NCBI RefSeq assembly: GCF_003008515.1
Contig: NZ_CP027668.1
Location: 4,195,001-4,259,000, forward strand
DNA length: 64,000 nt
Origin: Phreatobacter cathodiphilus
Lineage (GTDB): Bacteria > Pseudomonadota > Alphaproteobacteria > Rhizobiales > Phreatobacteraceae
Reading direction: 5' to 3'
Program-made: the position numbers and the translations under genes
The notes under the pieces: generated by a model
Told to the model about the DNA's origin: nothing
Databases searched by the model: none
Seen by the model: the letters and a program-made list of their open reading frames with translations, nothing else
Shown: positions 11,520 through 31,184 of the stretch, piece by piece
How positions within the stretch are numbered: the stretch's first letter is position 1
Layout of the letters: the number at the start of each line of letters is the position of its first letter

Positions 11520-11545
11520 GGAACCTTCTCCGTCGGTGCGACGTT
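11520..11545 (+). promoter_or_regulatory. EcfG-type promoter GGAAC-N17-CGTT
   Basis: An exact -35 GGAAC at 11520-11524 and -10 CGTT at 11542-11545 are separated by 17 bases. The start point would lie near 11552, giving a short leader to the small membrane protein gene at 11580. Confidence 0.75.
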
Positions 11546-11579
11546 GTCAGGTCAACAACGCACAATCATGGAGATGGAA

Positions 11580-11663
11580 ATGGGTCTCGGACGCGGTGCT
11601 CTCTTGTGGCTCCTCGGCATTCCCCTGCCGATCATCATCCTGCTCGCCATCTTCTGGAGCTGA
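11580..11663 (+). CDS. Small hydrophobic membrane peptide (27 aa)
   Basis: The predicted product runs MGLGRGALLWLLG then PLPIIILLAIFWS: a single transmembrane helix with a short glycine-rich N-terminus. Three in-frame ATGs occur (11568, 11574, 11580); GGAG at 11570-11573 best serves the last. It lies between an exact EcfG promoter and a 13-bp perfect terminator, so it is a complete stand-alone transcription unit of about 180 bases. Similar short one-helix proteins are widespread in Proteobacteria but uncharacterised. A stress-induced membrane role is inferred from the promoter. Confidence 0.7.
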   Translation: MGLGRGALLWLLGIPLPIIILLAIFWS

Positions 11664-11699
11664 GCAGGTTCGCCCCCTGAACCGGGGCGCCTCGAACAT

Positions 11700-11732
11700 A
11701 AACAGGGTCCGGGCTCCGTCCGGACCCTGTTT
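11700..11732. terminator. 13-bp perfect hairpin terminator between convergent genes
   Basis: AAACAGGGTCCGG at 11700-11712 pairs fully with CCGGACCCTGTTT at 11720-11732 around a seven-base loop. The T-run on the plus side and A-run on the minus side allow bidirectional termination between the small peptide gene and the kinase operon. A second, weaker CGCCCC/GGGGCG hairpin precedes it at 11671-11689. Confidence 0.85.
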
Positions 11733-11750
11733 CGCGTCCACAGGGACGCT

Positions 11751-13238
11751 TCAGCGCGTCAGTTGCTGGGTCGGGGCCGTCAGGCTGACCCGCAGCCCGG
11801 CCGCCGACCAGTCGTAGGTCATCGCGCCCTTGAGCTGACGCTGGACGCTCATCTCGATGAGCTGGCTGCCGAAACCGCGATGGGTCGGCGCTTCGTCCAT
11901 CACCGCCGTGCGCCTTTCGTTCCAGTTGAGCGTGACGTCGCTGGCCGAGGCGGTCCATTCCACCGTCAGCTCGCCGCCATCCTCGGCCAGCGCCCCGTAT
12001 TTCGCGGCGTTGGTGGCGAGTTCGTGGAAGACGAGGGCGAGGCTCGTGGCCGCCGTCGACCCGAGCGAGATCTGCGGCCCCGACAGCGTCACCTGGTCCG
12101 GCCGGCCGAGATGCGGCGCCAGGATGCGGGTGAGCAGATCCGACAGGTGCGTCGTCTCGGCCTGTTCCCTCTCGCCGAAGACGGCGGAGCGGATGAGGTC
12201 GTGGGCCGCGGCCAGCGCCGACAGGCGCCCGCGCAGCGCTTCCGCCATCTCGCGCGGCGTCGCCGAGGTGCGGGCGGTCATCGAGACCAGCCCCGAGACC
12301 ACCGCGAAGATGTTCTTCACCCGGTGGTTGAGTTCGCGCAGCAGGATGGAGCGCGCCTCCTCCGATTCCTTGAGCTCGGTGATGTCGACGATGGCACCGG
12401 GGAAGCGTGCCGGCTTGCCCTCGTGGTCGTAGAGGCACTCGCCGCGCGCGATCACCCAGCGCCAGCCGCCGTCCCGGGTCCTGAGCCGGTACTCCGACGT
12501 GTATTTCTCCTTCGTCGTCATGGCCTGCTGGAAGGCCTCGCGCACCCGCGGCAGGTCGTCGGGATGAATCGCCTCCAGATAGTGCTCGACCGGCATGCCG
12601 TCCTGACTGGGGCCGGGCCCGCTGCCGAACAGTTCCGCGAGGCGGGCGTCGGGGAAAAACAGGTCGGAGCCGATATGCCAGTCCCAGGTGCCGATCATTC
12701 CGGCGGAATTGAGCGCGAAGGCGAGGCGCTCGCGGCTGCGCGCCAGTTCCTCCTGCGCCCGGATGCGCTCGGTCGTTTCGGTGACGACGCCGAGCACGCC
12801 GATGCGCTCGCCATCCTCGCCGACCACGGGGCTGTAGGCGAGATCGAACCAGACGTCCTCCGGCCCGCCGTTGCGGTAGAGCACGAAGGGCTGATCGGTG
12901 AAGGTGAGGGTCGCGCCGCCGAGCACCGTCTCCATCATCGAGCCGTTGAACGCGGCCGCCTCGGGCCAGGCCTCGCGCACCGGCTGGCCGAGGATGTGCG
13001 GATGGCGCGATCCGGCGATCTGCGCATAGCCCTCGTTGTAGAGCATGATCCCGGCCGGGCCCATCATCAGCGTCTGGGGGACCGGGGAGGCGAGGATCAG
13101 CTTGATCACCGTGCGGACGGATGCAGGCCAGTCCTCGATCGGACCCAGCGGCGTCCCCGACCAGTCATGCGATGCGATGAGCCGCCCGATCTCGCCGCCG
13201 CGGGTGGTCAGGCGTTCCGTCCAGGTACTGTGATTCAT
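11751..13238 (-). CDS. PAS-domain HWE-family sensor histidine kinase
   Basis: This 495-residue protein has no membrane segment. It opens with a PAS-like domain beginning SHDWSGTPLGPIEDWP, followed by a second PAS_3/PAC domain (about residues 165-290, with SEYRLRTRDGGWRWVIARGE) and an HWE kinase core. The H-box is LRELNHRVKNIFAVV, the N-box FHELATNAAKYGALA, and the WNE variant of the WxE motif is in LTLNW-type context. It overlaps the upstream kinase gene by four bases (ATGA), implying translational coupling. HWE kinases typically feed PhyR or single-domain regulators; a GSR link is inferred. Confidence 0.88.
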   Translation of the reverse strand: MNHSTWTERLTTRGGEIGRLIASHDWSGTPLGPIEDWPASVRTVIKLILASPVPQTLMMGPAGIMLYNEGYAQIAGSRHPHILGQPVREAWPEAAAFNGSMMETVLGGATLTFTDQPFVLYRNGGPEDVWFDLAYSPVVGEDGERIGVLGVVTETTERIRAQEELARSRERLAFALNSAGMIGTWDWHIGSDLFFPDARLAELFGSGPGPSQDGMPVEHYLEAIHPDDLPRVREAFQQAMTTKEKYTSEYRLRTRDGGWRWVIARGECLYDHEGKPARFPGAIVDITELKESEEARSILLRELNHRVKNIFAVVSGLVSMTARTSATPREMAEALRGRLSALAAAHDLIRSAVFGEREQAETTHLSDLLTRILAPHLGRPDQVTLSGPQISLGSTAATSLALVFHELATNAAKYGALAEDGGELTVEWTASASDVTLNWNERRTAVMDEAPTHRGFGSQLIEMSVQRQLKGAMTYDWSAAGLRVSLTAPTQQLTR

Positions 13239-14266
13239 GTGGGGTAAGCGGCCTTCAATCCCGTCGTGGACCAAGCCACCTCGTGCTGGGCAACCTTGGG
13301 AACATCGAATCGGAGCCGGCAAAGCGTGCCGCCCTCGCTGGCGATGGACAGGGTCCCGCCGAGCTGCGAGGCAAAAGATCTCAGCACGGTCAGGCCGATG
13401 CTGCGGGCAGTGGCGAGGTCGAAGCCGGCGGGAAGGCCGGGGCCGTCGTCCCCCACCCGCAGTTCGGCGAGGCCGCCGCTCTTCTCCAGCGTCACCGAGA
13501 TGATGCCCGACGGCCGCGACCCGATACCGTGTTCGAGGGCGTTGTTGATGCACTCGGTGAGGATCAGTGCGACGGGCAGGAACTTGTCCTGCGGCAGGGC
13601 GACGGGCGTGATGTCGGTGACGAGCGTGACGCGGTCACGGGCGCCCGCCGCATCGATGCAGCGCTCCGCCAGCTCGCGCACGAAGTCGTCGTCGATCCGG
13701 CCGTCGGCATGGGCCGGGTCGTGGAACATGCGGTGGATGTCGGCGATGACGCCGACCCGCTGCACGCTGTCGGCGAGGGCCCGGCGGGCCTCGGGATCCT
13801 TCACCGCGCGGAGCTGGATGTTGAGCAGGGCGGACACGGACTGGAGGTTGTTGCCGATCCGGTGCTGGAGCTCCTTGAACAGCGTATCGCGCTGCTCGGC
13901 GTGCAGGACTGCCTTTTCACGCTCGGCGCGGAGGGCCGCGAGGGCCCCTGTCAGCCGGTCGATGATGAGAATGTCGACCACCACGATGAAGGCGAAGAAG
14001 GCGATGGCGACGCCTGACTGGTAGTCGAGGACCAGGGCGTTGGCGGGCGGGATGAAGAAATAAAGGGCGGCGAGGCCGCTCAGCACCGCGCAGAGGCTTC
14101 CCGGCCCGGCGCCCGCGACGAAGGTGGCGACGATGATCGCCGGGAAGAAGGTCAGGAAGGGAAAGCCGGGGGGCAGCGAGGGTTCTGCGAGGAAGCGCAG
14201 GGCGAGCGCCGCCAGAAACAGGCCGACGCCCACGGAATATCGCAACAGCCAATGCCGATCGTTCAT
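13235..14266 (-). CDS. DUF4118-type membrane sensor kinase, HisKA_2 family
   Basis: This kinase of about 343 residues has an N-terminal DUF4118-like membrane domain with three to four helices (residues about 10-105, including PPGFPFLTFFPAIIVATFVAG and the PPANALVL loop), as in KdpD-type sensors. The HisKA_2 H-box is FKELQHRIGNNLQSVSALL. The ATPase domain has an intact N-box ECINNALEHG and G-box VGDDGPGLPAGFD. I chose the ATG at 14266 because DUF4118 begins right after it; an ATG at 14302 is possible. Its stop overlaps the start of the PAS-HWE kinase, so both kinases are made from one message. Confidence 0.85.
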   Translation of the reverse strand: MNDRHWLLRYSVGVGLFLAALALRFLAEPSLPPGFPFLTFFPAIIVATFVAGAGPGSLCAVLSGLAALYFFIPPANALVLDYQSGVAIAFFAFIVVVDILIIDRLTGALAALRAEREKAVLHAEQRDTLFKELQHRIGNNLQSVSALLNIQLRAVKDPEARRALADSVQRVGVIADIHRMFHDPAHADGRIDDDFVRELAERCIDAAGARDRVTLVTDITPVALPQDKFLPVALILTECINNALEHGIGSRPSGIISVTLEKSGGLAELRVGDDGPGLPAGFDLATARSIGLTVLRSFASQLGGTLSIASEGGTLCRLRFDVPKVAQHEVAWSTTGLKAAYPT

Positions 14267-14356
14267 GTAGGTCCCGCGGGGCGCCGTCCAACCGCCATCC
14301 ATACCATCAGGATCGGAGCCGTTGGTGTCAAAAGACGTAGCGCCGAGCAGACCAAC

Positions 14357-14414: not shown

Positions 14415-14422
14415 GGAAAGGT

Positions 14423-14596
14423 CTAGGCCCGCCGGATCAGGCCGGCGACCACCGACACGACGAAGAGGACGATCGCGACCCAGAACAGCAGCTGCGCGCC
14501 GCCCATGGCGGTGCCGGCGACGCCGCCGAAGCCGAGGAAGGCGGCGACCAGCGCGACGATGAGGAAGACGACGGCCCAGTGGAGAAGGGTACCCAT
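14423..14596 (-). CDS. DUF1328 small membrane protein
   Basis: This 57-residue protein has two hydrophobic helices ([20 protein letters not shown] and [20 protein letters not shown]), separated by a GGVAGTAMG turn. This is the hallmark of the DUF1328/YtjA family, and the length is exactly typical. AGGAG precedes the ATG. An exact EcfG promoter on the same strand begins about 70 bases upstream, consistent with the frequent appearance of DUF1328 genes among stress-induced envelope genes. Molecular function is unknown. Confidence 0.88.
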
Positions 14597-14666
14597 GATG
14601 CAATCTCCTGACGGTGTTGTTGAACGGTCTTCGAGGACCTATGCAGACAGTGAATGTCGTGCCAAC

Positions 14667-14691
14667 AACGCCGGCCCTTTGAACGGGTTCC
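14667..14691 (-). promoter_or_regulatory. EcfG-type promoter for the DUF1328 gene
   Basis: Read on the minus strand, GGAAC (14691-14687), a 16-base spacer and CGTT (14670-14667) match the consensus exactly. The start would be near 14660. Confidence 0.8.
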
Positions 14692-14726: not shown

Positions 14727-14751
14727 GGAACTTCGGGCCCGCCGCCGCGTT
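14727..14751 (+). promoter_or_regulatory. EcfG-type promoter for the large HWE kinase gene
   Basis: GGAAC at 14727-14731, 16 bases, then CGTT at 14748-14751. It lies 36 bp from an oppositely oriented copy, so the two form a back-to-back pair. The leader to the kinase start at 14995 would be about 235 bases; nothing else recognisable occupies the rest of the 398-bp intergenic stretch 14597-14994. Confidence 0.7.
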
Positions 14752-14994: not shown

Positions 14995-17463
14995 ATGGCT
15001 GAGGTGAGTCCCCCGACATCGGAAGCCGACACGACCCCCGCATCCGCCGACGAAAGCCGGCGCCTGCGGGCCCTTCGCGTGCGCCTGCTCATCCTGGTGG
15101 TCGGCATCGCCGTGCCGCTGCTCGCCCTCGCGCTCGGCGCGGTCTGGCAGACCACCGCCAGCGAAAGGCGGCGCATGGAGGGCCGGCTCGTCGACCAGGC
15201 CCGCGCCATCGCCGGGGCGGTGGACGTGGAGATGGACAGGGCCGGCCTCTACCTGCGGGCTCTGGCCTCGTCGCCCTCCCTCGCCGCCGAGGACTGGCGC
15301 GCCCTCCATGGCCAGGCGCTCCAGTCGGCGCCGCGCGGAACCTTCGTCGCGGTGCTGGACGGCGAGGGCCGGCGGCTGCTCAACACCTTCTTCCCCCTCG
15401 ACGGAGGCGGGCTCACCCCGGTCGAGACCTCCGCCGCGCCGACCGTGCGAAAGGCGCTGGAGAGCGGCGAGGTGGTCTTTTCCGGCATCGTCGACCGCAC
15501 CGCCATGGGCGGGCCGGCCGTCGTCGCGATGCTTGGCGGCGACACAGCCTCCGGCCGCCGCGTCGCGGTGATGCTGGTCATGCCGTCGCAGCTCCTGTCG
15601 GGGCTCCTCGGCCAGCAGAACCTGCCCTCCGACTGGTTGTCGGCGGTCCTCGACCAGAACGACATCGTCATCGCCCGCTCCCGCGACCCGGACCGCTTCG
15701 TCGGAACCACCGCCGTGGCGCCCGTGCGGCAGGCGCTGGCGGCGAGGAGCAGCGGCCTCATCCACACCCGCACGGTGGAGAACCTCACCGCCACCCTCGC
15801 CTTCGCCCGGGCGCCGATCAGCGGCTACGCGGCCGTGATCGCCGTTCCCGAGGTCGTGTTCGGCCGGGTCTTCTTCTCCGCCCTCCGCCCGGTGGCCCTG
15901 ATCGGCGGGCTGCTGGTCCTGGCCGCCCTCGTCATCGCCATGCTCGCCTCGCGGCGCATCCTCTCGGCGGTGCGGCGCGGCTATGCGGAGGAAAAAAGCC
16001 TGCGCGAGGAGGTGGCGAGGAGCCTCCGCATCCGCGACGCCGAACTGAAGGAGAGCGAACGGCGGTTCCAGACCATCGCCGACGCCATGCCGCAGCTCGT
16101 CTGGTCGACCCTTCCCGACGGTTACCACGACTATTTCAACGAGCGCTGGTACGAATTCACCGGCACGGCGCCGGGCTCCACCATGGGCGGGATCTGGAAC
16201 GACCTGCTCCATCCCGACGACCAGGAGCGCGCGGCGAAGCGGTGGGCCCAGTCCCTCGAGACCGGCGAGCCCTACGAGATCGAATACCGGTTCAAGTCCG
16301 CCGACGGCGGCTATCGCTGGTTCATCGGCCGCGCCGTGCCCATGCGCGACGCCACCGGCCGGATCGAGCGCTGGTTCGGCACCTGCACCGACATCCACGA
16401 CAAGAAGCTGGTGGAGGAGGCGCTGGTCTCCACCCAGCGTCAACTCAAGGCGCGGGTCGCCGAACTCGCCCAGGAGAAGGCGCGGCTGGAAAGGCTGATG
16501 CTCTCGGCCCCCAACCTCATCTACATCAACGACCTTCAGCGCCGCCGCAACGCCTATGTGAACCCGCAGATCTTCGAGAGCCTCGGCTACGGCCCCTCCG
16601 AGTTGATGGGCCGGCCGCTGAAGACGCTCGGCGCCTTCGTCCATCCGGACGACCGCCGGCGGGTGGCCGAGTTCGCCTCGCAGGTGCGGCGCATCGCCGA
16701 CGGCGAGGTCCGCGAGATCGAGTACCGCATCCGCCACACCGACGGCAGCTATCGCTGGTTCCTGGTGCGGGAGACCCCGTTCCAGCGCGATCCCGTCGGC
16801 AAGGTCATCCAGGTTCTCGGCACGGCGCTCGACATCGGTTCGCGCAAGCAGGCCGAGGAACGCCAGCAGATGCTGATCCGCGAACTGCACCACCGCGTGA
16901 AGAACATCCTCGCCACGGTGCAGGCCATCGCCTCGGCGACCGGCCGTTCCTCCACCAGCTTCTCGGCCTTCCGCGAGCGCTTCTCCGACCGCCTGGTCTC
17001 CCTCGGCCGCACCCATTCCCTCCTCACCCGCGAGGCCTGGGCGGGAGCCGGCATACGCGACATCCTGGAAAGCGAGCTCTCGCCCTATCTCCAGGACGGC
17101 GAGTCCCGCGTGGTCATCGACGGCCCGGCTCTGGTGGTGCCGCGCGACATGACGGTGCCGATCGGCATGGCGATCCACGAGCTCACCACCAACGCGGTGA
17201 AATACGGTGCCCTGTCGGTACCGGAGGGGCGGGTCCACGTCACCATCGCCTCCGACGGTGCCGTCCCGGAGCCCCGCATGACCCTGGAATGGCGCGAGAG
17301 CGGTGGCCCGCCGGTGAAGGTGCCGGAGCGCAGCGGCTTCGGCTCGCTCCTGCTCAACCGGCTGCTCGCCTCCCAGCTCGGCGGCGAAGTCGCCATCGAC
17401 TACCGCCCAGACGGAGTCGTCGCCCGCATCGACGTGGTCCTGCGCAAGGACGACGTGCGCTGA
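14995..17463 (+). CDS. Membrane-bound CHASE/PAS HWE-family sensor histidine kinase
   Basis: This 822-residue kinase has a cytoplasmic N-terminus, TM1 at about residues 25-45 (LLILVVGIAVPLLALALGAV), a periplasmic sensor of about 240 residues, and TM2 near residues 297-320. Two PAS/PAC domains follow (PDGYHDYFNERWYEFTGT and NAYVNPQIFESLGYG), then an HWE core. The H-box is IRELHHRVKNILATVQAI, the N-box IHELTTNAVKYGALS and the WxE motif LEWRESGGPP. The promoter at 14727 suggests that it belongs to the EcfG regulon and could feed back on PhyR. The ligand of the periplasmic domain is unknown. Confidence 0.9.
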   Translation: MAEVSPPTSEADTTPASADESRRLRALRVRLLILVVGIAVPLLALALGAVWQTTASERRRMEGRLVDQARAIAGAVDVEMDRAGLYLRALASSPSLAAEDWRALHGQALQSAPRGTFVAVLDGEGRRLLNTFFPLDGGGLTPVETSAAPTVRKALESGEVVFSGIVDRTAMGGPAVVAMLGGDTASGRRVAVMLVMPSQLLSGLLGQQNLPSDWLSAVLDQNDIVIARSRDPDRFVGTTAVAPVRQALAARSSGLIHTRTVENLTATLAFARAPISGYAAVIAVPEVVFGRVFFSALRPVALIGGLLVLAALVIAMLASRRILSAVRRGYAEEKSLREEVARSLRIRDAELKESERRFQTIADAMPQLVWSTLPDGYHDYFNERWYEFTGTAPGSTMGGIWNDLLHPDDQERAAKRWAQSLETGEPYEIEYRFKSADGGYRWFIGRAVPMRDATGRIERWFGTCTDIHDKKLVEEALVSTQRQLKARVAELAQEKARLERLMLSAPNLIYINDLQRRRNAYVNPQIFESLGYGPSELMGRPLKTLGAFVHPDDRRRVAEFASQVRRIADGEVREIEYRIRHTDGSYRWFLVRETPFQRDPVGKVIQVLGTALDIGSRKQAEERQQMLIRELHHRVKNILATVQAIASATGRSSTSFSAFRERFSDRLVSLGRTHSLLTREAWAGAGIRDILESELSPYLQDGESRVVIDGPALVVPRDMTVPIGMAIHELTTNAVKYGALSVPEGRVHVTIASDGAVPEPRMTLEWRESGGPPVKVPERSGFGSLLLNRLLASQLGGEVAIDYRPDGVVARIDVVLRKDDVR

Positions 17464-17478: not shown

Positions 17479-17503
17479 GGAACCTTGCGGCGGGCCGGTC
17501 GTT
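17479..17503 (+). promoter_or_regulatory. EcfG-type promoter for the AI-2E family permease
   Basis: GGAAC at 17479-17483, 16 bases, CGTT at 17500-17503. It begins 16 bases after the kinase stop and about 50 bases before the next start. Confidence 0.8.
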
Positions 17504-17560: not shown

Positions 17561-18772
17561 ATGCGCAGCGAGCTTTTGTGGTTTCTGCCCCGTCACGAGG
17601 AGGCGCCGGAGCCGCCGACCGACGACCACGACCTCTTCGACATCGGCGATCACGATCCCGTCCTGCGTTACGCGACGCTCGGCATCTTCGTCATCATGGC
17701 GACGGCGGCCCTCGCCATCGCCCGGCCCGTCGCCCTGCCGGTCACCGCCGGCATCGTCTTCGGGCTGGTTCTCGGCCCGGTCTCCGACGCCCTCGTGCGC
17801 CGCGGCCTGCCCCATGCTGCGGCGGCGGCCATCGTCGTCCTCACGGGCATCGTCCTGCTGATGGGCCTCTTCGCCATCCTCGCGGCTCCGGTGGCGCTCG
17901 GCGCCGACCAGATCCCCGCCATCGTCGACACGCTGAGGGCCAAGTTCGACGGCTTCTTCGACATGATGCGGCGGCTGCAGGGCGTGCCCCAGGGCGCCAC
18001 CGCGCCGGTTGCGACGGAGACGGCCGCGGGCGCCTCCTTCACCCCGCTCCTCAATATCGCCGTCACCTCGTCCAGCGCCGCCGGCGGCATGCTGATCTTC
18101 GTGGCGACGATCTTCTTCTACCTCGCCGCCCGCCGTCACCTGAAGGCGCGCGTGCTGCGCCTCTGCCTCGGCCGCGACGCGCGCCAGGTCGCCGGCTCCT
18201 TCTTCGAGGAGGTCGAGCAGCGCATCGGCAGCTACTTCGCCGTCGTCACCGTCATCAACCTCGTCGTGGGCGTCATAGCCACCGCCATCGCCTGGCTGGC
18301 GGGCTTTCCCTATCCGCTGTTCTGGGGCGCGCTGTCCTTCGTCCTCAACTACCTCGCCTTCATCGGCCCGTTGATCCTCACCGCGCTCATGCTGGGCGCC
18401 GGCGTCACCACCGGCGACACCGCCTTCGCCGCCCTCTGGCCCGTCAGCGTCTATGCCCTGATCCACCTCGTCGAGGGCAATGTGCTCACCCCGAGCCTCG
18501 TCGGCCGCCGGCTCACCGTTTCGCCCTTCCTCGTCTTCCTCTCCTTCGTCTTCTGGCTTTGGCTCTGGGGCCCGGTCGGCGCCATCCTCTCCACCCCCCT
18601 GCTCCTGATCGGCATGGTGATGGTGGAGGTGTTGTCGGCCTATCGTCACCTCAACAAGCCGTCCGAGGGCGGCAGCGACGCCGCGACGACGACGGGAACC
18701 GCCGACGAGACGGCGCGTTTAACGATGCGGGATGGCGCTCAGCCGCAATCCCCTGTTTCCATCACGGCTTGA
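17561..18772 (+). CDS. AI-2E family transporter (PerM/TqsA-type)
   Basis: This 403-residue integral membrane protein has about eight helices and the AI-2E_transport pattern: paired N-terminal helices (YATLGIFVIMATAALAIARP, TAGIVFGLVLGPVSDAL), a central amphipathic region, and the conserved C-terminal block with YPLFWGALSFVLNYLAFIGP and LTPSLVGRRLTVSPFLVFLS. Members export small molecules or act as ion exchangers; autoinducer transport is shown for only a few. The ATG at 17561 has a GGGGA ribosome site; an upstream in-frame ATG at 17477 precedes the EcfG promoter and is unlikely. The C-terminal tail encodes a second EcfG promoter. Confidence 0.88.
   Translation: MRSELLWFLPRHEEAPEPPTDDHDLFDIGDHDPVLRYATLGIFVIMATAALAIARPVALPVTAGIVFGLVLGPVSDALVRRGLPHAAAAAIVVLTGIVLLMGLFAILAAPVALGADQIPAIVDTLRAKFDGFFDMMRRLQGVPQGATAPVATETAAGASFTPLLNIAVTSSSAAGGMLIFVATIFFYLAARRHLKARVLRLCLGRDARQVAGSFFEEVEQRIGSYFAVVTVINLVVGVIATAIAWLAGFPYPLFWGALSFVLNYLAFIGPLILTALMLGAGVTTGDTAFAALWPVSVYALIHLVEGNVLTPSLVGRRLTVSPFLVFLSFVFWLWLWGPVGAILSTPLLLIGMVMVEVLSAYRHLNKPSEGGSDAATTTGTADETARLTMRDGAQPQSPVSITA
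18695..18719 (+). promoter_or_regulatory. EcfG-type promoter inside the 3' end of the permease gene
   Basis: GGAAC at 18695-18699, 16 bases, CGTT at 18716-18719, within the last 26 codons of the AI-2E gene. It is placed to drive the YqjD-like gene at 18791. Confidence 0.75.
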
Positions 18773-20155: not shown

Positions 20156-20180
20156 GGAACGAAGGCACCGGCGCCGCGTT
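20156..20180 (+). promoter_or_regulatory. EcfG-type promoter for the cytoplasmic PRC-barrel gene
   Basis: GGAAC at 20156-20160, 16 bases, CGTT at 20177-20180; the start would fall near 20187, 30 bases before the gene. Confidence 0.8.
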
Positions 20181-20703: not shown

Positions 20704-20967
20704 TCAGATGCGCGACGGCTGCGCCTGGGTCTGCCCGGCGGCATCGATCGTCCGGGCGGGCGGCGCGTCGCGGAAGCGGTCGAAGGCGCCGTGCGCGAAG
20801 TCGACATAGGCGGCGGACGGCGCGTGGACGATGGCGCCGGCGACAGGCGTCCCGGCCTCGTCCGCCGTCCGGGAGAGGAACGCGACGCCGAACGCGACGA
20901 GCGCGGCGAAGGCTGCTGCGCCGACGAGGCGGATGCCGGTGCGGCGGGCGGGAGTACGGACCTGCAT
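20704..20967 (-). CDS. Small membrane-anchored hypothetical protein (87 aa)
   Basis: I do not recognise a family. The product has a basic N-terminus (MQVRTPARRTGIR), one transmembrane or signal segment (LVGAAAFAALVAFGVAFL) and a 50-residue polar tail. GGAG lies seven bases before the ATG at 20967 and a clear terminator follows. A near-consensus EcfG promoter (one mismatch in the -35) lies 35 bases upstream, so it probably belongs to the same stress regulon as its neighbours. Confidence 0.65.
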   Translation of the reverse strand: MQVRTPARRTGIRLVGAAAFAALVAFGVAFLSRTADEAGTPVAGAIVHAPSAAYVDFAHGAFDRFRDAPPARTIDAAGQTQAQPSRI

Positions 20968-22075: not shown

Positions 22076-22738
22076 TCAGGAGCGCTTGGCGCTGAAGCTC
22101 GGCATATCGTTGAGCTGCGCCTTCGTGCTGGTGACGAAGCCGATCAGCGTGCCGTCGGACTGGCGCATCAGGCGCACCTGACCGAGCGGCAGGGCGACGT
22201 TCTTCTCGCCGATGCCGAGGAAGCCGCCGACGCCGAGGACGGCGTGGGTGATGCGCCCGTCGGCGCCGATCACCAGGTCATTGACCTCGCCGATGGAGTC
22301 GTGCTGATCGCGCATCGCGCGCCACTGCTCGTCGCTCACCGGGGTGATCGCCATCTGGCCGCCGGCCGAAGAGTTGGCCGCCGTCGCGCCCGGGGTCATC
22401 GCGCCCGAACCGGTGCCCGGCGCGGTGGTGCCGGTGGTGCCGGCCGTCGCGCCGCGGGTCGCCGTCGAGCCGGCGTCGGAGCGCGCGGCCGGGGCGGCGG
22501 TCGAGCCGGTGGTGGCGGCCGAATCCGGCTTCGGCGCATAGATCGAGATGCCCACCAGCTTGGTGGTGGTGAGCTGCTCGTTGGCAGCACGGGTCATGGT
22601 GCTGTTGGCCGGGGGAACGGTCGTCTGGGTCTGGGCCGGGGCGGCGGGAGCCTGCGGGGCCGGAGCGGTCGTCTGGGCCAGGGCGCCGGTGGCGAGCATG
22701 GCGGCGACGGATGCCGTCACAAGATAGGTCTTCAGCAT
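22076..22738 (-). CDS. Exported PRC-barrel domain protein
   Basis: This 220-residue protein has a signal peptide (MLKTYLVTASVAAMLATGALA), a long Thr/Ala/Gly-rich disordered linker (about residues 60-125) and a C-terminal PRC-barrel domain. The barrel contains SIGEVNDLVIGADGRITHAVLGVGGFLGIGEKNVAL, split here as two recognisable strands around VLGVGGFLGIGE. The strong resemblance of that core to the cytoplasmic protein at 20217-20576 suggests related domains, one exported. A near-consensus EcfG promoter lies about 85-105 bases upstream. Confidence 0.82.
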   Translation of the reverse strand: MLKTYLVTASVAAMLATGALAQTTAPAPQAPAAPAQTQTTVPPANSTMTRAANEQLTTTKLVGISIYAPKPDSAATTGSTAAPAARSDAGSTATRGATAGTTGTTAPGTGSGAMTPGATAANSSAGGQMAITPVSDEQWRAMRDQHDSIGEVNDLVIGADGRITHAVLGVGGFLGIGEKNVALPLGQVRLMRQSDGTLIGFVTSTKAQLNDMPSFSAKRS

Positions 22739-23874: not shown

Positions 23875-23900
23875 AACGCCGATCCCGGCCCCGGAGTTCC
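23875..23900 (-). promoter_or_regulatory. EcfG-type promoter GGAAC-N17-CGTT
   Basis: Minus-strand GGAAC (23900-23896), 17 bases, CGTT (23878-23875), directed at the transglutaminase-like gene at 22883-23779. It starts immediately past the stop of the Crp-family gene. Confidence 0.75.
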
Positions 23901-24740: not shown

Positions 24741-24762
24741 TTCCGTTCCGGGAGCAACGGAA
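24741..24762. promoter_or_regulatory. Inverted repeat overlapping an EcfG -35
   Basis: TTCCGTT at 24741-24747 and AACGGAA at 24756-24762 form a perfect 7-bp palindrome with an eight-base spacer. Its right arm covers four of the five bases of the GGAAC at 24759-24763, so a bound regulator, perhaps the adjacent Crp-family protein, would block sigma access. Confidence 0.4.
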
Positions 24763-24783
24763 CTCCGACGCGGCCGGCGCGTT
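24759..24783 (+). promoter_or_regulatory. EcfG-type promoter for the SbmA/YddA-like ABC protein
   Basis: GGAAC at 24759-24763, 16 bases, CGTT at 24780-24783; the transcript would start near 24790, about 80 bases before the gene. Confidence 0.8.
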
Positions 24784-24869: not shown

Positions 24870-26675
24870 ATGGACACGATGGTAGATGGACCCGTCGACC
24901 GGCAGAGCCGGTCGCGGTCGCGCGCATTCTTCTCGATGGCGCGCGGCTTCTGGAGCGGCGGCTCTGCCCGCCGGGCCTGGCTGTTGACGGTCGTCGTCCT
25001 CGCCTTCGCCTTCGCACAGATCGCCGCCCAGGTCGGCATCAACACCTGGAACCGGCTCTTCTTCGACGCTCTCGAGCGCAAGGACATCGCCGCCGTCGGC
25101 ACGACCGTGGGGCTCCTGCCGGTGCTGCTCGCCGTCGCCGCCTTCACCATGTCCGGTCTCGTGGTCTCGCGCATGCTGTTGCAGGTGCGCTGGCGCGAGT
25201 GGGTGACCAACAAGCTCGCCGGCTGGTGGATCGCCGACCAGCGCTACTACCGGCTAGGCTTCCTGGCGCAGGAGCATTCCGCGCCGGAGTTCCGCATCGC
25301 CGAGGACGTGCGCATTTCCACCGAGCCGCTGGTGGAATTCGCCATCGGCCTCATCTCGGCCGCCGTGACCGCCATGACCTTCGCGGCCATCCTGTGGACG
25401 GTCGCCGGCTCCATCACGTTCGAGGTCGGCGGGGTGCGGATCTTCATCCCCGCCTACATGGCCATCGCCGCCGTCGTCTATGCGGTGGTGGCCTCGCTCG
25501 CCGCCTATTTCGTCGGCCGTGCGCTGGTCGGCAAGGTCGCCGCCAAGAACGAGACGGAGGCCCTGTTTCGGGCCGAAATGACGCGTCTTCGCGAGAACGC
25601 CGAGAGCATCGCCCTGATCAAGGGCGATGCCGACGAGCGCGCCTCCGTCCGCGACACCTATCGCAACGTCGTCAAGGCCTGGATGGCCGTGGTCCGGCGG
25701 CAGGGCTATCTCGCCCTCGTGCTCAACACCAACGGGGCGCTCTTCCCCATCGTCCCGCTGCTACTCGCCGCCCCGAAATATCTGTCGGGAGAGCTCTCGC
25801 TCGGCGCCGTCATGCAGGTGGCGGCGGCCTTCAGCGCCGTGCAGGCGGCTCTCATCTGGTTCGTCGACAACTTCGTGCGCCTGTCCGAGTGGTATGCCTC
25901 CGTCGTCCGCGTCGACGAATTCGCCCAGACCCTCGAGGAGGTCGACATCGGCGCCATCATGGAGGACGAGCAGCAGATCAAGCTCGGCGAGAGCGACGAC
26001 GACGCCATCCACATCGACAACCTCTCCCTCGCCCACCGCAACGGCCGCGTCGTCATCGACGCCGCCTCCATCCGCATCGAACCGGGGGAGAAGGTGCTGA
26101 TCGCCGGCGAGAGCGGCACGGGCAAGAGCACCCTGATCCGCGCCCTCGCAGGGCTCTGGCCCTGGGGCTCGGGCTCCATCGCCTTCCCGAAGAACGTCCG
26201 CTACGCCTTCGTGCCGCAGAAGCCCTACATGCCGCGCGGTACGCTGAAGGAGGTGCTGCTCTATCCCGAATCCGACGCGCCGGTGCCGGACGATACCGTC
26301 CGCGCCGCCATGGAGCGCTGCGGCCTCGACTACATGGTCAGGCGTCTCGGCGACGAGGACGACTGGGACCGCGTCCTCTCCGGCGGCGAGCGCCAGCGTG
26401 TCGCCTTCTGCCGTCTGCTGATCAACAAGCCGCCCATCATTATCATGGATGAGGCCACCGCCGCCCTCGACGAGGGCAGCCAGGACAGCCTTCTCGCCCT
26501 CTTCGAGAATGAGCTGGCGGGCTCGACGCTGATCAGCGTCGGCCACAGGCCAGGGCTCGAGGCCTTCCACACGCGCAAGGTGACCCTGATCCGCCGTCCG
26601 GCCGGTGCCCACATGCAGTCGAGCCGCATCCGCAAGCCCTGGTGGAAGGTGCTGCGCAACACCCAGTCCGCGTGA
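24870..26675 (+). CDS. ABC transporter with fused membrane and ATPase domains, SbmA/BacA-YddA-like
   Basis: This 601-residue half-transporter has an ABC_membrane_2-type transmembrane domain (about residues 35-335). It includes the family marker TWNRLFFDALERKD and the LAGWWIADQRYYRLGF motif shared with SbmA/BacA and peroxisomal ABCD proteins. The ATPase domain has Walker A GESGTGKST, signature LSGGERQR, Walker B IIIMDEAT and a switch His in SVGHRP. It would work as a homodimer in the inner membrane. BacA-related proteins import peptides or handle very-long-chain lipids; which applies here is not clear. Confidence 0.88.
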   Translation: MDTMVDGPVDRQSRSRSRAFFSMARGFWSGGSARRAWLLTVVVLAFAFAQIAAQVGINTWNRLFFDALERKDIAAVGTTVGLLPVLLAVAAFTMSGLVVSRMLLQVRWREWVTNKLAGWWIADQRYYRLGFLAQEHSAPEFRIAEDVRISTEPLVEFAIGLISAAVTAMTFAAILWTVAGSITFEVGGVRIFIPAYMAIAAVVYAVVASLAAYFVGRALVGKVAAKNETEALFRAEMTRLRENAESIALIKGDADERASVRDTYRNVVKAWMAVVRRQGYLALVLNTNGALFPIVPLLLAAPKYLSGELSLGAVMQVAAAFSAVQAALIWFVDNFVRLSEWYASVVRVDEFAQTLEEVDIGAIMEDEQQIKLGESDDDAIHIDNLSLAHRNGRVVIDAASIRIEPGEKVLIAGESGTGKSTLIRALAGLWPWGSGSIAFPKNVRYAFVPQKPYMPRGTLKEVLLYPESDAPVPDDTVRAAMERCGLDYMVRRLGDEDDWDRVLSGGERQRVAFCRLLINKPPIIIMDEATAALDEGSQDSLLALFENELAGSTLISVGHRPGLEAFHTRKVTLIRRPAGAHMQSSRIRKPWWKVLRNTQSA

Positions 26676-26702: not shown

Positions 26703-26727
26703 GGAACCCTCGCCCCCCGCCCGCGTT
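26703..26727 (+). promoter_or_regulatory. EcfG-type promoter for a putative small RNA
   Basis: GGAAC at 26703-26707, 16 bases, CGTT at 26724-26727. A strong terminator begins only about 45 bases after the predicted start, so the primary product should be a short RNA rather than the transglutaminase mRNA. Confidence 0.8.
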
Positions 26728-26871: not shown

Positions 26872-27753
26872 ATGGATATCCACGTTCGCCACATCACGAC
26901 CTACCAATATGCGGGACCCGTCCAGTTCGGGCCGCACCGCCTCATGCTGCGCCCGCGCGACAGCTTCGACATGCGCATCCTGGAGACCGAGATCGACATC
27001 TTCCCCGCGGCCGAGCTGCACTGGTCGCACGACGTCTACGGCAACACCGTCGCGGTCGCGACCTTCGCCGCGTCGGCGGACCGGCTGGAGATCACCTCGG
27101 GGCTCGTTCTACGCCGCTACGCCTCCGCCTTCCCGCGCGAGCGCACCTCCGCCAGCGCCCTCTTCGTGCCGCACTATTCGGACGGGGAGCGCATCGTGCT
27201 GCAGCCCTTCATGACGCCCGCCACCAGCGACGAGGACGGCGCCCTCTCCGCCTGGATCGCCCAGGTACTGTCCAACGGCGGGCCCGAGCACGATCCGCTG
27301 GCGCGGCTGTCGCAGGAAATCCACGCCGGCTTCGGCTATTCCGTCCGCTACGAGGAGGGCACGCAGCCTCCCTCGCAGACGCTGTCCCTGCGCTCCGGCT
27401 CCTGCCGCGACCTCGCCTGGCTGTTCATCGAGGCGGTGCGCCGGCTCGGCTACGCCGCGCGCTTCGTCAGCGGCTACCTGCACAACAGCCACAACGACGA
27501 TCCCGCCAACCGCGCGGCGGTGGGGCTCACCCATGCCTGGGCCGAGGTCTTCGTTCCCGGGGACGGCTGGGTGGAGTTCGATCCGACCAACGCCCTGGTC
27601 GCCGACCCTCACCTGATCCGGGTGGCGGTAGCGCGGGTGCCTTGGGACGCCTCGCCGGTGGCCGGCAGCTTCATCGGGCCGGTGGGGGCGCAGATCAGCC
27701 TGTCGGTGGGCGTCGAGATCAATCCGACGGAGACCTACCGGAACGTCGCCTGA
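26872..27753 (+). CDS. Transglutaminase-like protein with N-terminal beta domain
   Basis: This 293-residue cytoplasmic protein starts MDIHVRHITTYQYAGPVQFG (the N-terminal domain paired with transglutaminase cores). It carries the full catalytic triad pattern: Cys in LRSGSCRDLAWLFIEAVRR, His in LTHAWAEVFVPG and Asp in FDPTNALV. Unlike the related gene at 22883-23779, the HAWxE motif is intact. Homologues sit beside alpha-E and circularly permuted ATP-grasp genes in other bacteria, but those are absent here. It lies downstream of the terminator at 26778-26804, so expression needs readthrough or another promoter. The ribosome site is weak. Confidence 0.87.
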   Translation: MDIHVRHITTYQYAGPVQFGPHRLMLRPRDSFDMRILETEIDIFPAAELHWSHDVYGNTVAVATFAASADRLEITSGLVLRRYASAFPRERTSASALFVPHYSDGERIVLQPFMTPATSDEDGALSAWIAQVLSNGGPEHDPLARLSQEIHAGFGYSVRYEEGTQPPSQTLSLRSGSCRDLAWLFIEAVRRLGYAARFVSGYLHNSHNDDPANRAAVGLTHAWAEVFVPGDGWVEFDPTNALVADPHLIRVAVARVPWDASPVAGSFIGPVGAQISLSVGVEINPTETYRNVA

Positions 27754-27756: not shown

Positions 27757-29406
27757 TCAGAGCGGCACGGTCCAGCGCCCGGCGCTCGCGCCCTCCGCCT
27801 CATTGGTCCGGGTCGCGCCGATCTGGCGCAGCAGGCCGTGGGCGATCTTCGTCTCCACCGCGTCGAGACGCCTGTCGTCGGTCATCACCGAGAGGGTGAG
27901 GTTGCCCTCCTCGCCGCGCGTCACCTCCACGGCGACGTGGTCGGCCTGACCGTCCTCCAGCGCGTGGGACGCGATCTCCACCACCAGCAGGCCCAGCGGG
28001 ATGGCCCTGTCGACCACCAGGCCGACATCCTCCGGGGCGACCGTCGAGATCCAGGGCCTCCCGGCGCGCATCAGTCCGTTGAGCATCACCGAGACCTCGT
28101 CGAGGAAGGGCTTCAGCTCCACCGGCCGCATCTCGCCCAGCGCCAGCGCGTGCCGATAGGCGATGGACAGGACATGGACCTTGGCCTCGACGGGCGCCAG
28201 CACCGCCCGATGCTCCGGCGACTGCTGCCGCCGGGCCAGGCTGATATAGCTCTGCACCACCTGAAGGCTGTTCTTCACGCGGTGGTGCAGTTCCCGCACC
28301 AGATGGCGGTTGGCGCCGATGGTGAGGTTGAGCTTCTCCACCCTCTCCGCCTGGTCGGTGACCAGGGCGTTGAAGGCTTCCGACACGCGGCGGATGTCCT
28401 CGGGCATGGAGGGGTCGACGGGCGCCAGCCGCGGCTGCTGCGAGGCACGGGCGACGGCCGCCGCCTCGATGCCGCGAATCCAGCGCACGATGTTGGCATC
28501 GATCGCCAGCGAGTAGACCGCGAAGAGCACCATCAGCGTCACCAGCGGCGTCAGCAGCAGTGCGATGAATTGCAGGAAGGCCGCCCGCTCCGCCTGCTGG
28601 TCGAACCGCGCCAGCACGTAGAGGTCCGGCTCGGCGACGAGCTGGGTGCCGTAGCTGCCGGTCATGCCCGTCTGGCTGGTCGATTCCCAGCGCTGGAGCT
28701 GTGGCCCGGTCCGCCCGGTCACGGGCAGCCAGGAGGTGTCGTCCTCGTTGATGCCGCGGGCGACGATCACCTCGGTGGAACTGCGGACGATGCCGACCGT
28801 GACGCCGGGATTGACCGTGCCGAGGTCGAAGGCCCGGTCCATGATGACGGCATCCACCAGGAGAGCCGATTCCAGCGCCGGCTGCTGGCGATCGCCCTGG
28901 CGCAGGGCGTAGATGACCATGAATCGCCGCCCGCCGATCCGCGTGACGCCGTAGCTCGTCTCGGCGAGATCGTTGCCGATCCAGGTCACGCTGCGGGTGC
29001 GCGCGCGATAGGTCTCGATCACGGCGCGGATGTCACTCTCCGCCAGGGCGTCGTTCCGGCTGGCGAGGCAGCCCGGCTGCTCGCCGGTGCGGATGGCGAT
29101 GGCGCTGACGCCGATATTGTCGCCGACGATCCGCTTTGCGATGGCCAGGCACCGGTCCGTCGCGCCGTCGACGGCCGCCACGCCCGCCGTCGCCGTCAGC
29201 AGCACCCTGAGCGACTCCCGGTACCAGACCCGGGTCCTCACCGCGAAATTGCCGACCGTCTGGAGCTGCGAGGCCTCGATGGAGGAGAGCACCGAACGAT
29301 AGGTCGCCACCGCCGTCACCGCCGTGATCACGGCGATCGGCAGGACGACGAGGACCATCAGGGCCAGGAGACGGCCCCGGACGGTGCGGAATGCGGTGAC
29401 ATTCAT
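27757..29406 (-). CDS. Membrane HisKA_2/HWE-type kinase of the GSR locus with degenerate ATPase domain
   Basis: This 549-residue protein has TM1 (residues about 13-33), a periplasmic sensor of about 235 residues and TM2 (about 277-300), followed by a HAMP-like linker and an intact H-box RELHHRVKNSLQVVQS (His375). The ATP-binding part looks broken: the N-box reads VVEIASHALEDG, with His481 where Asn is expected, and TDDRRLDAV replaces the usual G-box DxGxG. It lies five bases after ecfG on the same strand, the position of PhyK-type kinases. It may act as phosphatase, phosphotransfer partner or sensor scaffold; loss of ATPase activity is inference. Confidence 0.85.
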   Translation of the reverse strand: MNVTAFRTVRGRLLALMVLVVLPIAVITAVTAVATYRSVLSSIEASQLQTVGNFAVRTRVWYRESLRVLLTATAGVAAVDGATDRCLAIAKRIVGDNIGVSAIAIRTGEQPGCLASRNDALAESDIRAVIETYRARTRSVTWIGNDLAETSYGVTRIGGRRFMVIYALRQGDRQQPALESALLVDAVIMDRAFDLGTVNPGVTVGIVRSSTEVIVARGINEDDTSWLPVTGRTGPQLQRWESTSQTGMTGSYGTQLVAEPDLYVLARFDQQAERAAFLQFIALLLTPLVTLMVLFAVYSLAIDANIVRWIRGIEAAAVARASQQPRLAPVDPSMPEDIRRVSEAFNALVTDQAERVEKLNLTIGANRHLVRELHHRVKNSLQVVQSYISLARRQQSPEHRAVLAPVEAKVHVLSIAYRHALALGEMRPVELKPFLDEVSVMLNGLMRAGRPWISTVAPEDVGLVVDRAIPLGLLVVEIASHALEDGQADHVAVEVTRGEEGNLTLSVMTDDRRLDAVETKIAHGLLRQIGATRTNEAEGASAGRWTVPL

Positions 29407-29411
29407 CGCGA

Positions 29412-29972
29412 TCAGGTACGCGCCATATCCGCAGGTGATTGATGGGTGACGGCGACGGTGTTGCGGTCGGGACCGATCTCGTCGACGCTGGTGATGCCGA
29501 GGAGATCGGCGAGCTTGGCGCGGGCGCGGTTGACGCGGCTCTTGATCGTGCCGACGGCCACCCCGCAGATCTCGGCCGCTTCCTCGTAGGACAGGCCGCT
29601 GGCGCCCACCATGATCAGCACCTCGCGATGCTCTTCCGACAGCTTGGCGAGGGCGACGCGGAAATCGGCGAGGTCGAGCGCGCTTTCCTGTTCTCCGGAG
29701 ACGGTGAGCCGCTGGGCATAGGTGCCGTCGCTGTCCTGAACCTCGCGGCCGCGCTTGCGGTAGAGCGAGTAATAGGTGTTGCGCAGGATGGTGAAGAGCC
29801 AGGCGCGCAGGCTCGTTCCCGGCTGGAACTTCTCGGAATTGCCCCAGGCCTTGAGCATCGTGTCCTGGACCAGGTCGTCCGCCTGCTGGACCGATCCGCA
29901 CAGCGAAACCGCGAAGGCACGCAGGTTCGACAGTTCGGCGATCAGGCCCTCGCGGAATTCGTCACTGGCCAT
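29412..29972 (-). CDS. ecfG: General stress response ECF sigma factor EcfG
   Basis: This 186-residue ECF sigma has region 2 (SVQQADDLVQDTMLKAW, followed by SLRAWLFTILRNTYYS) and region 4 (LSYEEAAEICGVAVGTIKSRVNRARAKL), matching the EcfG (ECF15) group. It directs RNA polymerase to GGAAC-N16/17-CGTT promoters, many of which surround it. Its start overlaps the end of nepR by 11 bases. The operon promoter at 30216-30240 is itself an EcfG site, implying positive autoregulation. Family knowledge: NepR sequesters it until phosphorylated PhyR binds NepR. Confidence 0.95.
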   Translation of the reverse strand: MASDEFREGLIAELSNLRAFAVSLCGSVQQADDLVQDTMLKAWGNSEKFQPGTSLRAWLFTILRNTYYSLYRKRGREVQDSDGTYAQRLTVSGEQESALDLADFRVALAKLSEEHREVLIMVGASGLSYEEAAEICGVAVGTIKSRVNRARAKLADLLGITSVDEIGPDRNTVAVTHQSPADMART

Positions 29973-30168: not shown

Positions 30169-30215
30169 CGATCTCTCCATCCGCACCCGTGGGGCGCGGC
30201 CTTGATCCAACCCAA

Positions 30216-30264
30216 AACGTGCCTCGCACACATTGGTTCCGCCAAAAAGAAAAAATAAAAAACT
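30216..30264 (-). promoter_or_regulatory. Autoregulated nepR-ecfG promoter with upstream A/T tract
   Basis: Minus-strand GGAAC (30240-30236), 16 bases, CGTT (30219-30216) is exact. Directly upstream of the -35, 30243-30264 is almost pure A on the plus strand (T on the minus), a striking tract in this GC-rich DNA and well placed as an UP element for the RNA polymerase alpha subunit. An imperfect repeat GCCAAACCA/TGGTTTTGGC (30266-30297) lies between it and phyR. Confidence 0.8.
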
Positions 30265-30318
30265 TGCCAAACCAAGGGGTTCCGGGCTGGTTTTGGCGAT
30301 GACCGACAGGAGTGTAGA

Positions 30319-31116
30319 ATGACCATCGCTGCGGAAATCGCACCGCATCTCCCTTACCTGCGCCGCTTCGCCCGCGCCCTCAACGGCACCCAGGCCGGAG
30401 GCGACTCCTATGTCGTCGCAACCCTCGAGGCGCTGGTCGCCGACCCCGCGTCCTTCCCCCGCGACATTCCCGCCCGCATCGCCCTCTACCGCATCTTCCT
30501 GAAGCTGTGGTCGTCCATGCCGGTCAACATGGCCGCCTCCCATGCCGGGGCGACCCGGGCGGGCGCCGTGGAGCGTAATCTCGACGCGCTGACGCCGCGG
30601 CCACGACAGGCCTTCCTCCTGCGCACGGTCGAAGGCTTCGCCATCCAGGACGTCGCGGCGGTGCTCGACATCGACGTCGACGCGGCGGCGGCCCTCGTCG
30701 AGCAGGCCGGTCGCGAGATCGCCGAGCAGGTGGCTACCGACGTTCTCATCATCGAGGACGAGCCGATCATCGCGCTCGACATCGAGACGCTGGTGCAGGA
30801 GCTCGGCCATTCCGTCACGGGCATCGCCCGCACCCACAAGGAGGCGGTGGCCCTCGTCAAGCAGAAGCGGCCAGGCCTCGTCCTCGCCGACATCCAGCTC
30901 GCCGACGGCTCCTCGGGCCTCGAGGCGGTGGCCGAGATCCTCGAGACCATCGACCTGCCGGTGATCTTCATCACGGCCTATCCCGAGCGGCTCCTCACCG
31001 GCGACCGCCCGGAACCGGCCTTCCTGATCACCAAGCCGTTCCAGCCCGAGGCGGTGAAGGCCGCCATCAGCCAGGCCCTGTTCTTCGACCGCCGGTCGGA
31101 GCGCAAGGTCGCCTGA
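30319..31116 (+). CDS. phyR: General stress response regulator PhyR (sigma-like/receiver fusion)
   Basis: This 265-residue protein has an N-terminal sigma-factor-like domain (residues 1-135, with PHLPYLRRFARALNGTQAGG and a region-4-like helix around EGFAIQDVAAVLDID) and a C-terminal receiver (VLIIEDEPIIALDIE; phosphoacceptor Asp191 in LADIQLADG; Lys239 in ITKPFQP). When phosphorylated, the sigma-like domain mimics EcfG and titrates NepR. It diverges from nepR-ecfG. The ATG is preceded by AGGAG. No exact EcfG site is seen on its own strand. Confidence 0.96.
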   Translation: MTIAAEIAPHLPYLRRFARALNGTQAGGDSYVVATLEALVADPASFPRDIPARIALYRIFLKLWSSMPVNMAASHAGATRAGAVERNLDALTPRPRQAFLLRTVEGFAIQDVAAVLDIDVDAAAALVEQAGREIAEQVATDVLIIEDEPIIALDIETLVQELGHSVTGIARTHKEAVALVKQKRPGLVLADIQLADGSSGLEAVAEILETIDLPVIFITAYPERLLTGDRPEPAFLITKPFQPEAVKAAISQALFFDRRSERKVA

Positions 31117-31149
31117 GACGGGCCACGGGTGACACTGCCGGATTTTGCC

Positions 31150-31178
31150 ATGCCGCGAGGGAACCTTCCTCGCGGCAT
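31150..31178 (+). terminator. phyR terminator hairpin
   Basis: ATGCCGCGAGG (31150-31160) pairs perfectly with CCTCGCGGCAT (31168-31178). There is no T-run beyond TTCC. The stem overlaps an EcfG promoter on the same strand. Confidence 0.7.
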
Positions 31179-31184
31179 TCCGTT
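31160..31184 (+). promoter_or_regulatory. EcfG-type promoter embedded in the phyR terminator
   Basis: GGAAC at 31160-31164 covers the hairpin loop, then 16 bases, then CGTT at 31181-31184. It is directed at the 49-aa membrane protein gene starting at 31234. Confidence 0.78.

Follow-up and report, generated by a model that had tools for sequence, protein, structure and literature searches.

The general stress response of alphaproteobacteria is known to depend on a locus in which phyR stands divergent from nepR and ecfG, the last of these encoding an extracytoplasmic function (ECF) sigma factor of group ECF15, with a histidine kinase gene next door. In the portions of the published descriptions on which we draw, the partner switch that leads from the kinase through PhyR phosphate and NepR release to EcfG is established in relatives of the present organism, an EcfG-type site precedes nepR (PMC8103513, PMC7083833, PMC4814048), and phyR itself is normally under EcfG control (PMC8103513, PMC4814048). 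The passages available on the EcfG-dependent small RNAs GsrN and ReC64 place these, too, near the phyR locus, so that an EcfG-controlled gene lies close to phyR-ecfG in several species; nearness to the locus had served as a search criterion for such RNAs (PMC5869019; PMC3892343). Here we analyse a stretch of 64,000 nucleotides (hereafter the window) from Phreatobacter cathodiphilus (assembly GCF_003008515.1), positions 4,195,001-4,259,000 of a chromosome represented by the single contig NZ_CP027668.1 of 4,494,445 bases. We are confident that the window holds an alphaproteobacterial general stress response locus, closely surrounded by part of its regulon. The window shares with the published loci the three core proteins, the divergent arrangement, the neighbouring kinase, the EcfG-type site before nepR and the promoter consensus. 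It differs from those descriptions, which as far as seen concern the core locus and its kinase, in that eleven target promoters are spread across 20 kb, most of them on the same side as ecfG, and it differs from the usual locus in that phyR has no recognizable site of its own.

The three core genes and the adjacent kinase gene are listed in Table 1, and the divergence of phyR from nepR-ecfG follows from their coordinates and Pfam matches. phyR is the sole full-length copy in the genome, all other matches being receiver domains, and ecfG is likewise single, the next ECF match having an E-value of 1.7e-13 and 28% identity. The EcfG protein matches the sigma r2/r4 and PhyR_sigma2 models of Pfam and, above its cut-off, PRK12547 of NCBIfam; none of these is specific for ECF15, and the protein is assigned to the EcfG group because of its NepR and PhyR partners. 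nepR lies directly upstream of ecfG in the same direction and overlaps the ecfG start; its product scores below the cut-off of the NCBIfam NepR model, and the kinase far below that of the NCBIfam PhyK model (E 3.6e-26). Among the best 80 of at least 552 PhyR candidates, the nearest named proteins (76-77%) come from Bosea and from unnamed Rhizobiales, and the named neighbours are mostly Hyphomicrobiales. The exact site at 30216 predicts autoregulation of nepR-ecfG.

Searching both strands for exact GGAAC-N16/17-CGTT, with the reversed pattern as a control, returned 13 sites in the window. An earlier reading of the letters alone (the sequence-only reading) had picked out by eye eleven sites within 20 kb around phyR, which we call the phyR island, and two outlying ones, and our search recovered every one of these coordinates; its estimate of about one chance site per 64 kb was also fair, dinucleotide-keeping shuffles of the window (n=100) giving a mean of 0.68 and a maximum of 3. 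The whole chromosome has 108 exact sites (55+53), compared with 27 matches of the reversed pattern. Equal density elsewhere in the chromosome, which that reading had named as decisive against it, was not what we found: the island has 11 sites in 19.665 kb (0.56 per kb), the rest of the chromosome 97 in 4.475 Mb (0.022 per kb), an approximately 26-fold difference. When 101 of the 108 positions, merged to 98, were replaced by uniform placements 20,000 times, no 20-kb stretch received more than eight sites. If only promoter-like sites are counted, that is, those with a predicted start on the same strand within 300 bp (two antisense sites inside genes that face starts were left out), the island holds 11 of 75 (merged) against 0.28 expected (Poisson p ~2e-14). 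All eleven island sites face a same-strand predicted start no more than 250 bp away, at 22-243 bp, as had been claimed. The sensible distances of that claim need correction in detail, sites 14727, 24759 and 26703 lying 243, 152 and 144 bp from their starts and site 18695 lying inside the 3' end of the preceding gene. Ten of the eleven lie on the side of phyR that faces nepR-ecfG, and the remaining site is beyond phyR.

Very probably these sites serve as EcfG promoters within the general stress response already known from alphaproteobacteria, a prediction made because of the sequence of the boxes, the site before nepR-ecfG and conservation in relatives. Conservation was assessed in nine congeners and four named records by scanning 420 bp upstream of target homologues in the phyR neighbourhood; homologue matches covering less than half of the query were dropped and paralogues were retained, and the accompanying comparison of gene order also hid matches below 40% identity. 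Of 78 target homologues, 53 have an exact site upstream; among 88 homologues of ten genes interspersed with the targets, the number is nine (Table 1 gives most of the individual values). Seven of those nine belong to a single receiver gene, which is probably an EcfG target elsewhere (Bosea and others). The boxes are kept while the spacers diverge, for example before the SbmA/BacA-like gene. By gene match the nepR site is exact in four of seven homologues, and a site about 0.1 kb upstream of phyR (-0.1 kb) is present in seven of nine congeners. Stretches of approximately 40-52 kb around phyR in the nine congeners contain 2-12 sites, compared with 0-2 control matches.

In the proposed mechanism, which is assigned to this organism from the genes present, stress-sensing HWE/HisKA_2 kinases would phosphorylate PhyR, PhyR would draw NepR off EcfG, and RNA polymerase carrying EcfG would initiate at GGAAC-N16/17-CGTT. 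EcfG would thereby raise nepR-ecfG itself and about ten neighbouring transcription units, encoding small membrane, DUF883-like, PRC-barrel and transglutaminase-like proteins, a permease, an SbmA/BacA-like transporter and a kinase.

An excess of sites around phyR is usual in the loci of Hyphomicrobiales that we examined and is visible in other alphaproteobacterial lineages. The named loci comprised the best 80 of the at least 552 confirmed PhyR candidates, with up to 10 kb on each side of phyR; weak receiver-only matches (L018-L030) were unused. In these 80 loci (1.49 Mb) there are 387 sites and 34 reversed-control matches; 343 of these sites face a predicted start no more than 350 bp away, and 61 of the 80 loci have a site within 500 bp of the phyR start. 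Reduced to 57 genus-level representatives, nearly all Hyphomicrobiales by title (genus labels were taken from record titles, and metagenome-assembled genomes without a genus name received a label of their own), the set contains 228 sites against 26 control matches. Their density per 10 kb is 17.5 at the core promoter, 1.4-4.1 out to 6 kb and 0.9-1.4 at 6-8 kb; beyond 8 kb it falls to 0.2-0.5, approximately background (control 0.1-0.4). At least one non-core site was found in 34 of the 38 full-length loci among the representatives (mean 3.8). With five sites within 10 kb of phyR, the present genome is close to the average of 59 full-length loci (5.6); what is distinctive is the reach of its cluster to -18.8 kb, a comparison made with congeners only because the named loci stop at 10 kb. 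Outside the order, 20 of 115 genomes searched gave a PhyR match at E 1e-30 (the window genome excepted), and their loci, several of which end at contig ends, contain 57 sites against 5.4 expected from the density of each genome and seven reversed-control matches; 40 of the 57 lie away from the core promoter, and one locus of the 20 has no site at all. Because a similar excess surrounds phyR in most of the related loci examined, the clustering is not peculiar to this genome, and the island is a large instance of an arrangement that those loci commonly show.

A list of EcfG-dependent genes measured by expression rather than by site is available for Sphingomonas melonis Fr1 (50 genes in 37 runs), in a paper whose portions seen do not treat regulon clustering as such (PMC6599016). 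With gene numbers as distance, a gene count of 3,817 and a 40-gene limit that was chosen after the list had been seen, six runs lie within 40 gene numbers of phyR against 0.79 expected (0.02% of draws), or five without nepR (0.1%). Within 20 gene numbers there are four runs (0.05%), or three without nepR (0.7%). In that species an EcfG-regulated nepR2 adjoins ecfG (PMC6599016).

The sequence-only reading had spoken of a stress island rather than scattered members of a regulon. A dense cluster centred on phyR is indeed present, but it does not confine the regulon, since 65 of the 76 promoter-like sites of the chromosome lie elsewhere; the regulon forms an archipelago rather than a single island. 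Of the 108 sites, 105 could be classified, three being beyond the stretches compared. The 76 promoter-like sites comprise 11 in the phyR island and 24 in four smaller clusters; the other 41 belong to none of the five. The five clusters, whose boundaries were drawn after the positions were known, are at 596-626, 1014-1034, 3364-3375, 4206-4227 and 4256-4275 kb and hold 38 sites, of which 35 face starts (8, 6, 6, 11 and 4, respectively); the remaining 67 sites include the 41 that face starts and the two antisense ones. When the phyR island is removed, one 20-kb stretch with seven sites remains, a number that none of 20,000 placements reaches. A genome-wide homologue search found neither ecfG nor a full-length phyR in the other four clusters. 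Further targets facing sites, named by Pfam and NCBIfam, are Ku, topoisomerase IB, GlgX, a zinc alcohol dehydrogenase, a glycosyltransferase, a pyridoxamine-oxidase-like protein, a lipid kinase and a trehalose-phosphatase/ROK-family pair at 3,756 kb, the last three of which lie outside the five clusters; other genome-wide target names are readings of sequence beginnings without a family search. Ku, topoisomerase IB, GlgX, PRC-barrel, alcohol dehydrogenase and glycosyltransferase families are shared with the S. melonis regulon, in which Ku is described as a likely direct target and GlgX, alcohol dehydrogenase and glycosyltransferase as putative indirect ones (PMC6599016, portions seen). A comparable scattering over several chromosomal islands has been called a pathogenicity archipelago for the KdgR regulon, which in the part of that account available to us consists of virulence enzymes under KdgR (PMC4908373).

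The stretch C1:1028001-1042000 of genome G000 holds a DNA-repair EcfG cluster with Ku and topoisomerase IB; LigD and a second Ku adjoin these but have no exact sites themselves. The congener G007 has two additional dense EcfG-type clusters, at C1:2975001-2994000 and 3834001-3846000 (seven and four sites), which hold homologues of genes that are near phyR in the window genome.

The membership of the phyR neighbourhood varies greatly. The 140 non-core target genes of the 57 representatives belong to 54 families, 34 of which occur in one representative only. DUF883-like, DUF1328 and PRC-barrel genes recur near phyR across many genera, and recurrent families are found on both of its sides: 13 left and 8 right for DUF883-like, 7 and 11 for DUF1328, and 2 and 6 for a family read as CsbD-like. 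The permease and DUF883-like genes, left of phyR here, are to its right in the congeners G003, G007 and G008. The trehalose-phosphatase/ROK-family pair, with divergent sites, is approximately 14 kb from phyR in G007 and approximately 470 kb from it here, and the lipid-kinase gene, far from phyR here, stands beside phyR, with a site, in 13 named loci. In the G007 stretches compared, the best matches of the transglutaminase gene behind site 23875 and of the 73-aa (amino acid) gene at 61968 are in other EcfG clusters, each with a site just upstream. Since members thus sit in different EcfG clusters of different genomes with their promoters kept, they appear to move among clusters, to judge from sequence comparison.

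Several results weigh against a conserved, EcfG-driven cluster, or against its continued recruitment of members. No site with one mismatch or fewer was found in the 300 bp upstream of phyR, a more degenerate site being outside this search. The site before the second transglutaminase gene (26703) is exact in just 5 of 12 homologues, and that before the 49-aa open reading frame (ORF; 31160) in neither of two, each of which has one mismatch; a same-strand exact site at +0.8 kb is present in two of nine congeners. One congener, G005, retains only two exact sites within 20 kb of phyR. The gene calls come from our own simple codon-usage finder, which missed nepR, the start of which was read directly; domains were assigned by Pfam. 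Finally, homologues of 65 distant regulon members show no significant excess near phyR over those of control genes (25 of 65 versus 147 of 483, p 0.20), a contrast that is blunted because the control set included genes of other clusters such as LigD and the second Ku. Distant-member homologues near phyR with an upstream site are in excess (10 of 65 versus 12 of 483, p 6e-5).

Two explanations of the clustering accept EcfG-dependent promoters. We tentatively propose that the surroundings of phyR act as a positional attractor: across the Alphaproteobacteria, different targets would repeatedly gain EcfG promoters or move to within approximately 8 kb of ecfG and nepR and would be exchanged with a few secondary clusters, as nearness to the source of EcfG or to one another would be advantageous. 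Selection would then keep nearness to phyR while individual members come and go, and the advantage would be that induction is faster or stronger, or that the genes of the response are transferred together. An old synteny may instead be at work, an ancestral cluster inherited with drift and offering no continuing advantage near phyR; this too is conceivable rather than probable. Gene order is largely kept within the genus, the recurrence of just a few families in many genera is what such inheritance would leave, and the weak showing of distant-member homologues as such agrees with it. Less easily accommodated are the 34 of 54 single-representative families, the recurrent families on either side of phyR, the displacement of the trehalose-phosphatase/ROK pair by hundreds of kilobases, and the transglutaminase and 73-aa genes, near phyR here, whose G007 homologues are in other EcfG clusters.

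Use of the sites by another ECF sigma factor with a GGAAC -35 box, EcfG being a bystander, is very unlikely. At least five further ECF-like genes are present in the genome, and GGAAC also begins the -35 element for E. coli RpoE (PMC8103513, portion seen), but CGTT is the published EcfG -10 box (PMC8103513, PMC7083833, PMC4814048, as far as these were available), such a site precedes nepR-ecfG here and lies close to the phyR start in most named loci, and the density is centred on phyR across genera. That the 20 kb are a horizontally acquired genomic island is hardly credible: the gene block is dense and themed and a tRNA-Thr lies 8.5 kb downstream, but its G+C content of 0.690 is not atypical (0.709 and 0.692 in the flanks), the block is common, in part or whole, to all nine congeners compared, and no integrase or transposase was matched by Pfam among 20 proteins scanned there. 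Chance or base composition as the source of the sites is practically ruled out by the shuffles, the reversed control and the placements.

The type of locus is already known. The portions of the open-licence PMC literature searched describe the core locus, the kinase, nepR2 beside ecfG and nearby small RNAs, and contain no statement that the EcfG regulon clusters around phyR; the quantified phyR neighbourhood and the turnover of its members are likewise absent from them. A rule that uses sequence only is suggested: within 10 kb of phyR, non-core EcfG sites outnumber control matches by about 7:1 (173 versus 26 in the 57 genus-level loci), most strongly within 4 kb, and this proximity makes small hydrophobic ORFs, DUF883-like, DUF1328 and transglutaminase-like proteins candidate stress genes in species not yet studied. 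It also becomes testable whether the targets of a global sigma factor gain from lying near the sigma gene; members that are near phyR in one species and distant in another, with promoters kept, provide natural pairs for comparing induction with distance.

Table 1. Core genes, EcfG-type promoters and variant-site genes in the window (coordinates are window positions; the last column gives homologues with a site upstream, exact unless a variant is named)
Feature	Position	Strand	Gene faced or evidence	Site in homologues
EcfG-type promoter	11520..11545	+	22 bp before 31-aa hydrophobic ORF 11568-11663 (+)	3/4
EcfG-type promoter	14667..14691	-	DUF1328 small membrane protein 14423-14596 (-)	5/9
EcfG-type promoter	14727..14751	+	243 bp before HWE kinase with PAS domains 14995-17463 (+)	2/2
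EcfG-type promoter	17479..17503	+	AI-2E-family permease 17561-18772 (+)	5/7
EcfG-type promoter	18695..18719	+	DUF883-like protein 18791-19150 (+); site inside 3' end of permease gene	9/10
EcfG-type promoter	20156..20180	+	PRC-barrel protein 20217-20576 (+)	6/8, some just 32-34% identical, possibly paralogues
87-aa gene	20704..20967	-	One-mismatch site TGAAC-N16-CGTT 34 bp upstream	Same variant in 3/3
PRC-barrel protein	22076..22738	-	Site GGAAC-N16-GGTT 83 bp upstream	GGTT in 4/5, CGTT in the fifth
EcfG-type promoter	23875..23900	-	Transglutaminase-like protein 22883-23779 (-)	4/6
EcfG-type promoter	24759..24783	+	152 bp before SbmA/BacA-like ABC transporter 24936-26675 (+)	10/11
EcfG-type promoter	26703..26727	+	144 bp before second transglutaminase-like protein 26872-27753 (+)	See text
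HisKA_2/HWE histidine kinase, PhyK-like	27757..29406	-	Directly downstream of ecfG; Pfam
ecfG, ECF sigma factor (sigma r2 + r4)	29412..29972	-	Pfam; NCBIfam PRK12547 above cut-off
nepR, anti-sigma factor, 68 aa	29962..30168	-	Pfam NepR 48.5 bits (cut-off 25.7)
EcfG-type promoter of nepR-ecfG	30216..30240	-	Exact site, 47 bp before nepR ATG at 30168	See text
phyR, sigma-like domain + receiver	30319..31116	+	Pfam PhyR_sigma2, PhyR_sigma-like, Response_reg; NCBIfam PhyR 369 bits (cut-off 240)
EcfG-type promoter	31160..31184	+	49-aa hydrophobic ORF 31234-31383 (+) with ribosome-binding site	See text
EcfG-type promoter	61839..61863	+	73-aa protein 61968-62189 (+)
EcfG-type promoter	62842..62866	+	HWE kinase with PAS domain 62903-63946 (+)

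The targets had been characterized from sequence alone as mostly envelope or small membrane genes and HWE kinases. The kinase part of this description was overstated, the direct kinase targets being one in the island and one at 62842. The promoter at 14667 may read on through the DUF1328 gene into two further kinases on the minus strand (13235-14302 and 11751-13238). The DUF883-like protein scores 25.1 bits with Pfam DUF883_C, just under the cut-off of 27. Two genes with variant sites are included in Table 1; the C/GGTT seen before the PRC-barrel gene at 22076..22738 and its homologues corresponds to the consensus given for M. extorquens in the part of the paper available (PMC4814048). A stand-alone receiver at 19623-20126, between two EcfG promoters of the island, resembles the receiver of PhyR (NCBIfam PhyR E 8e-15, below cut-off) and is a candidate single-domain regulator like SdrG or MrrA, as far as the descriptions of these were available.

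Beyond phyR, a GsrN-like small RNA at site 31160 was considered but gained no support from Rfam. GsrN and ReC64 are single RNA genes, whereas this site precedes the 49-aa ORF, a credible one with its ribosome-binding site, and an Rfam scan of 8-34 kb up to E 1 matched no family. Between this ORF and a receiver-like gene at 31549-31962 lies a perfect 9-bp inverted repeat (31469-31499), which no T-run follows. The receiver-like gene, downstream of phyR, lacks a site here even when one mismatch is allowed; in Bosea and other named records its homologues are preceded by exact EcfG sites at 38-54 bp.

The outlying sites 61839 and 62842 may be understood from the congeners G002 and G004, in which a tRNA-Thr is followed by an EcfG site within approximately 150 bp and by the 73-aa gene within approximately 260 bp; in two congeners the homologue of this gene is approximately 9 kb from phyR. 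Here, 22 kb of genes unmatched in the G002 and G004 stretches separate the tRNA-Thr (39667-39742) from this site and gene, so that the two outlying sites belong to a cluster whose sites lie approximately 9-12 kb from phyR in those congeners. In two congeners nothing corresponding to the block at 39743-61830, directly 3' of this tRNA-Thr(CGT), is present between the shared flanks; among those of its proteins that were scanned there is no integrase, and the 3' end of the tRNA is not repeated exactly in the window. Genes of the block include SIS/RpiR and SDR genes, a branched-chain-type ABC system and a TonB/ExbBD/FecR/ECF receptor set, together with a two-component system and an FtsX/ABC exporter at 48.1-54.3 kb, where the G+C content is 0.653.

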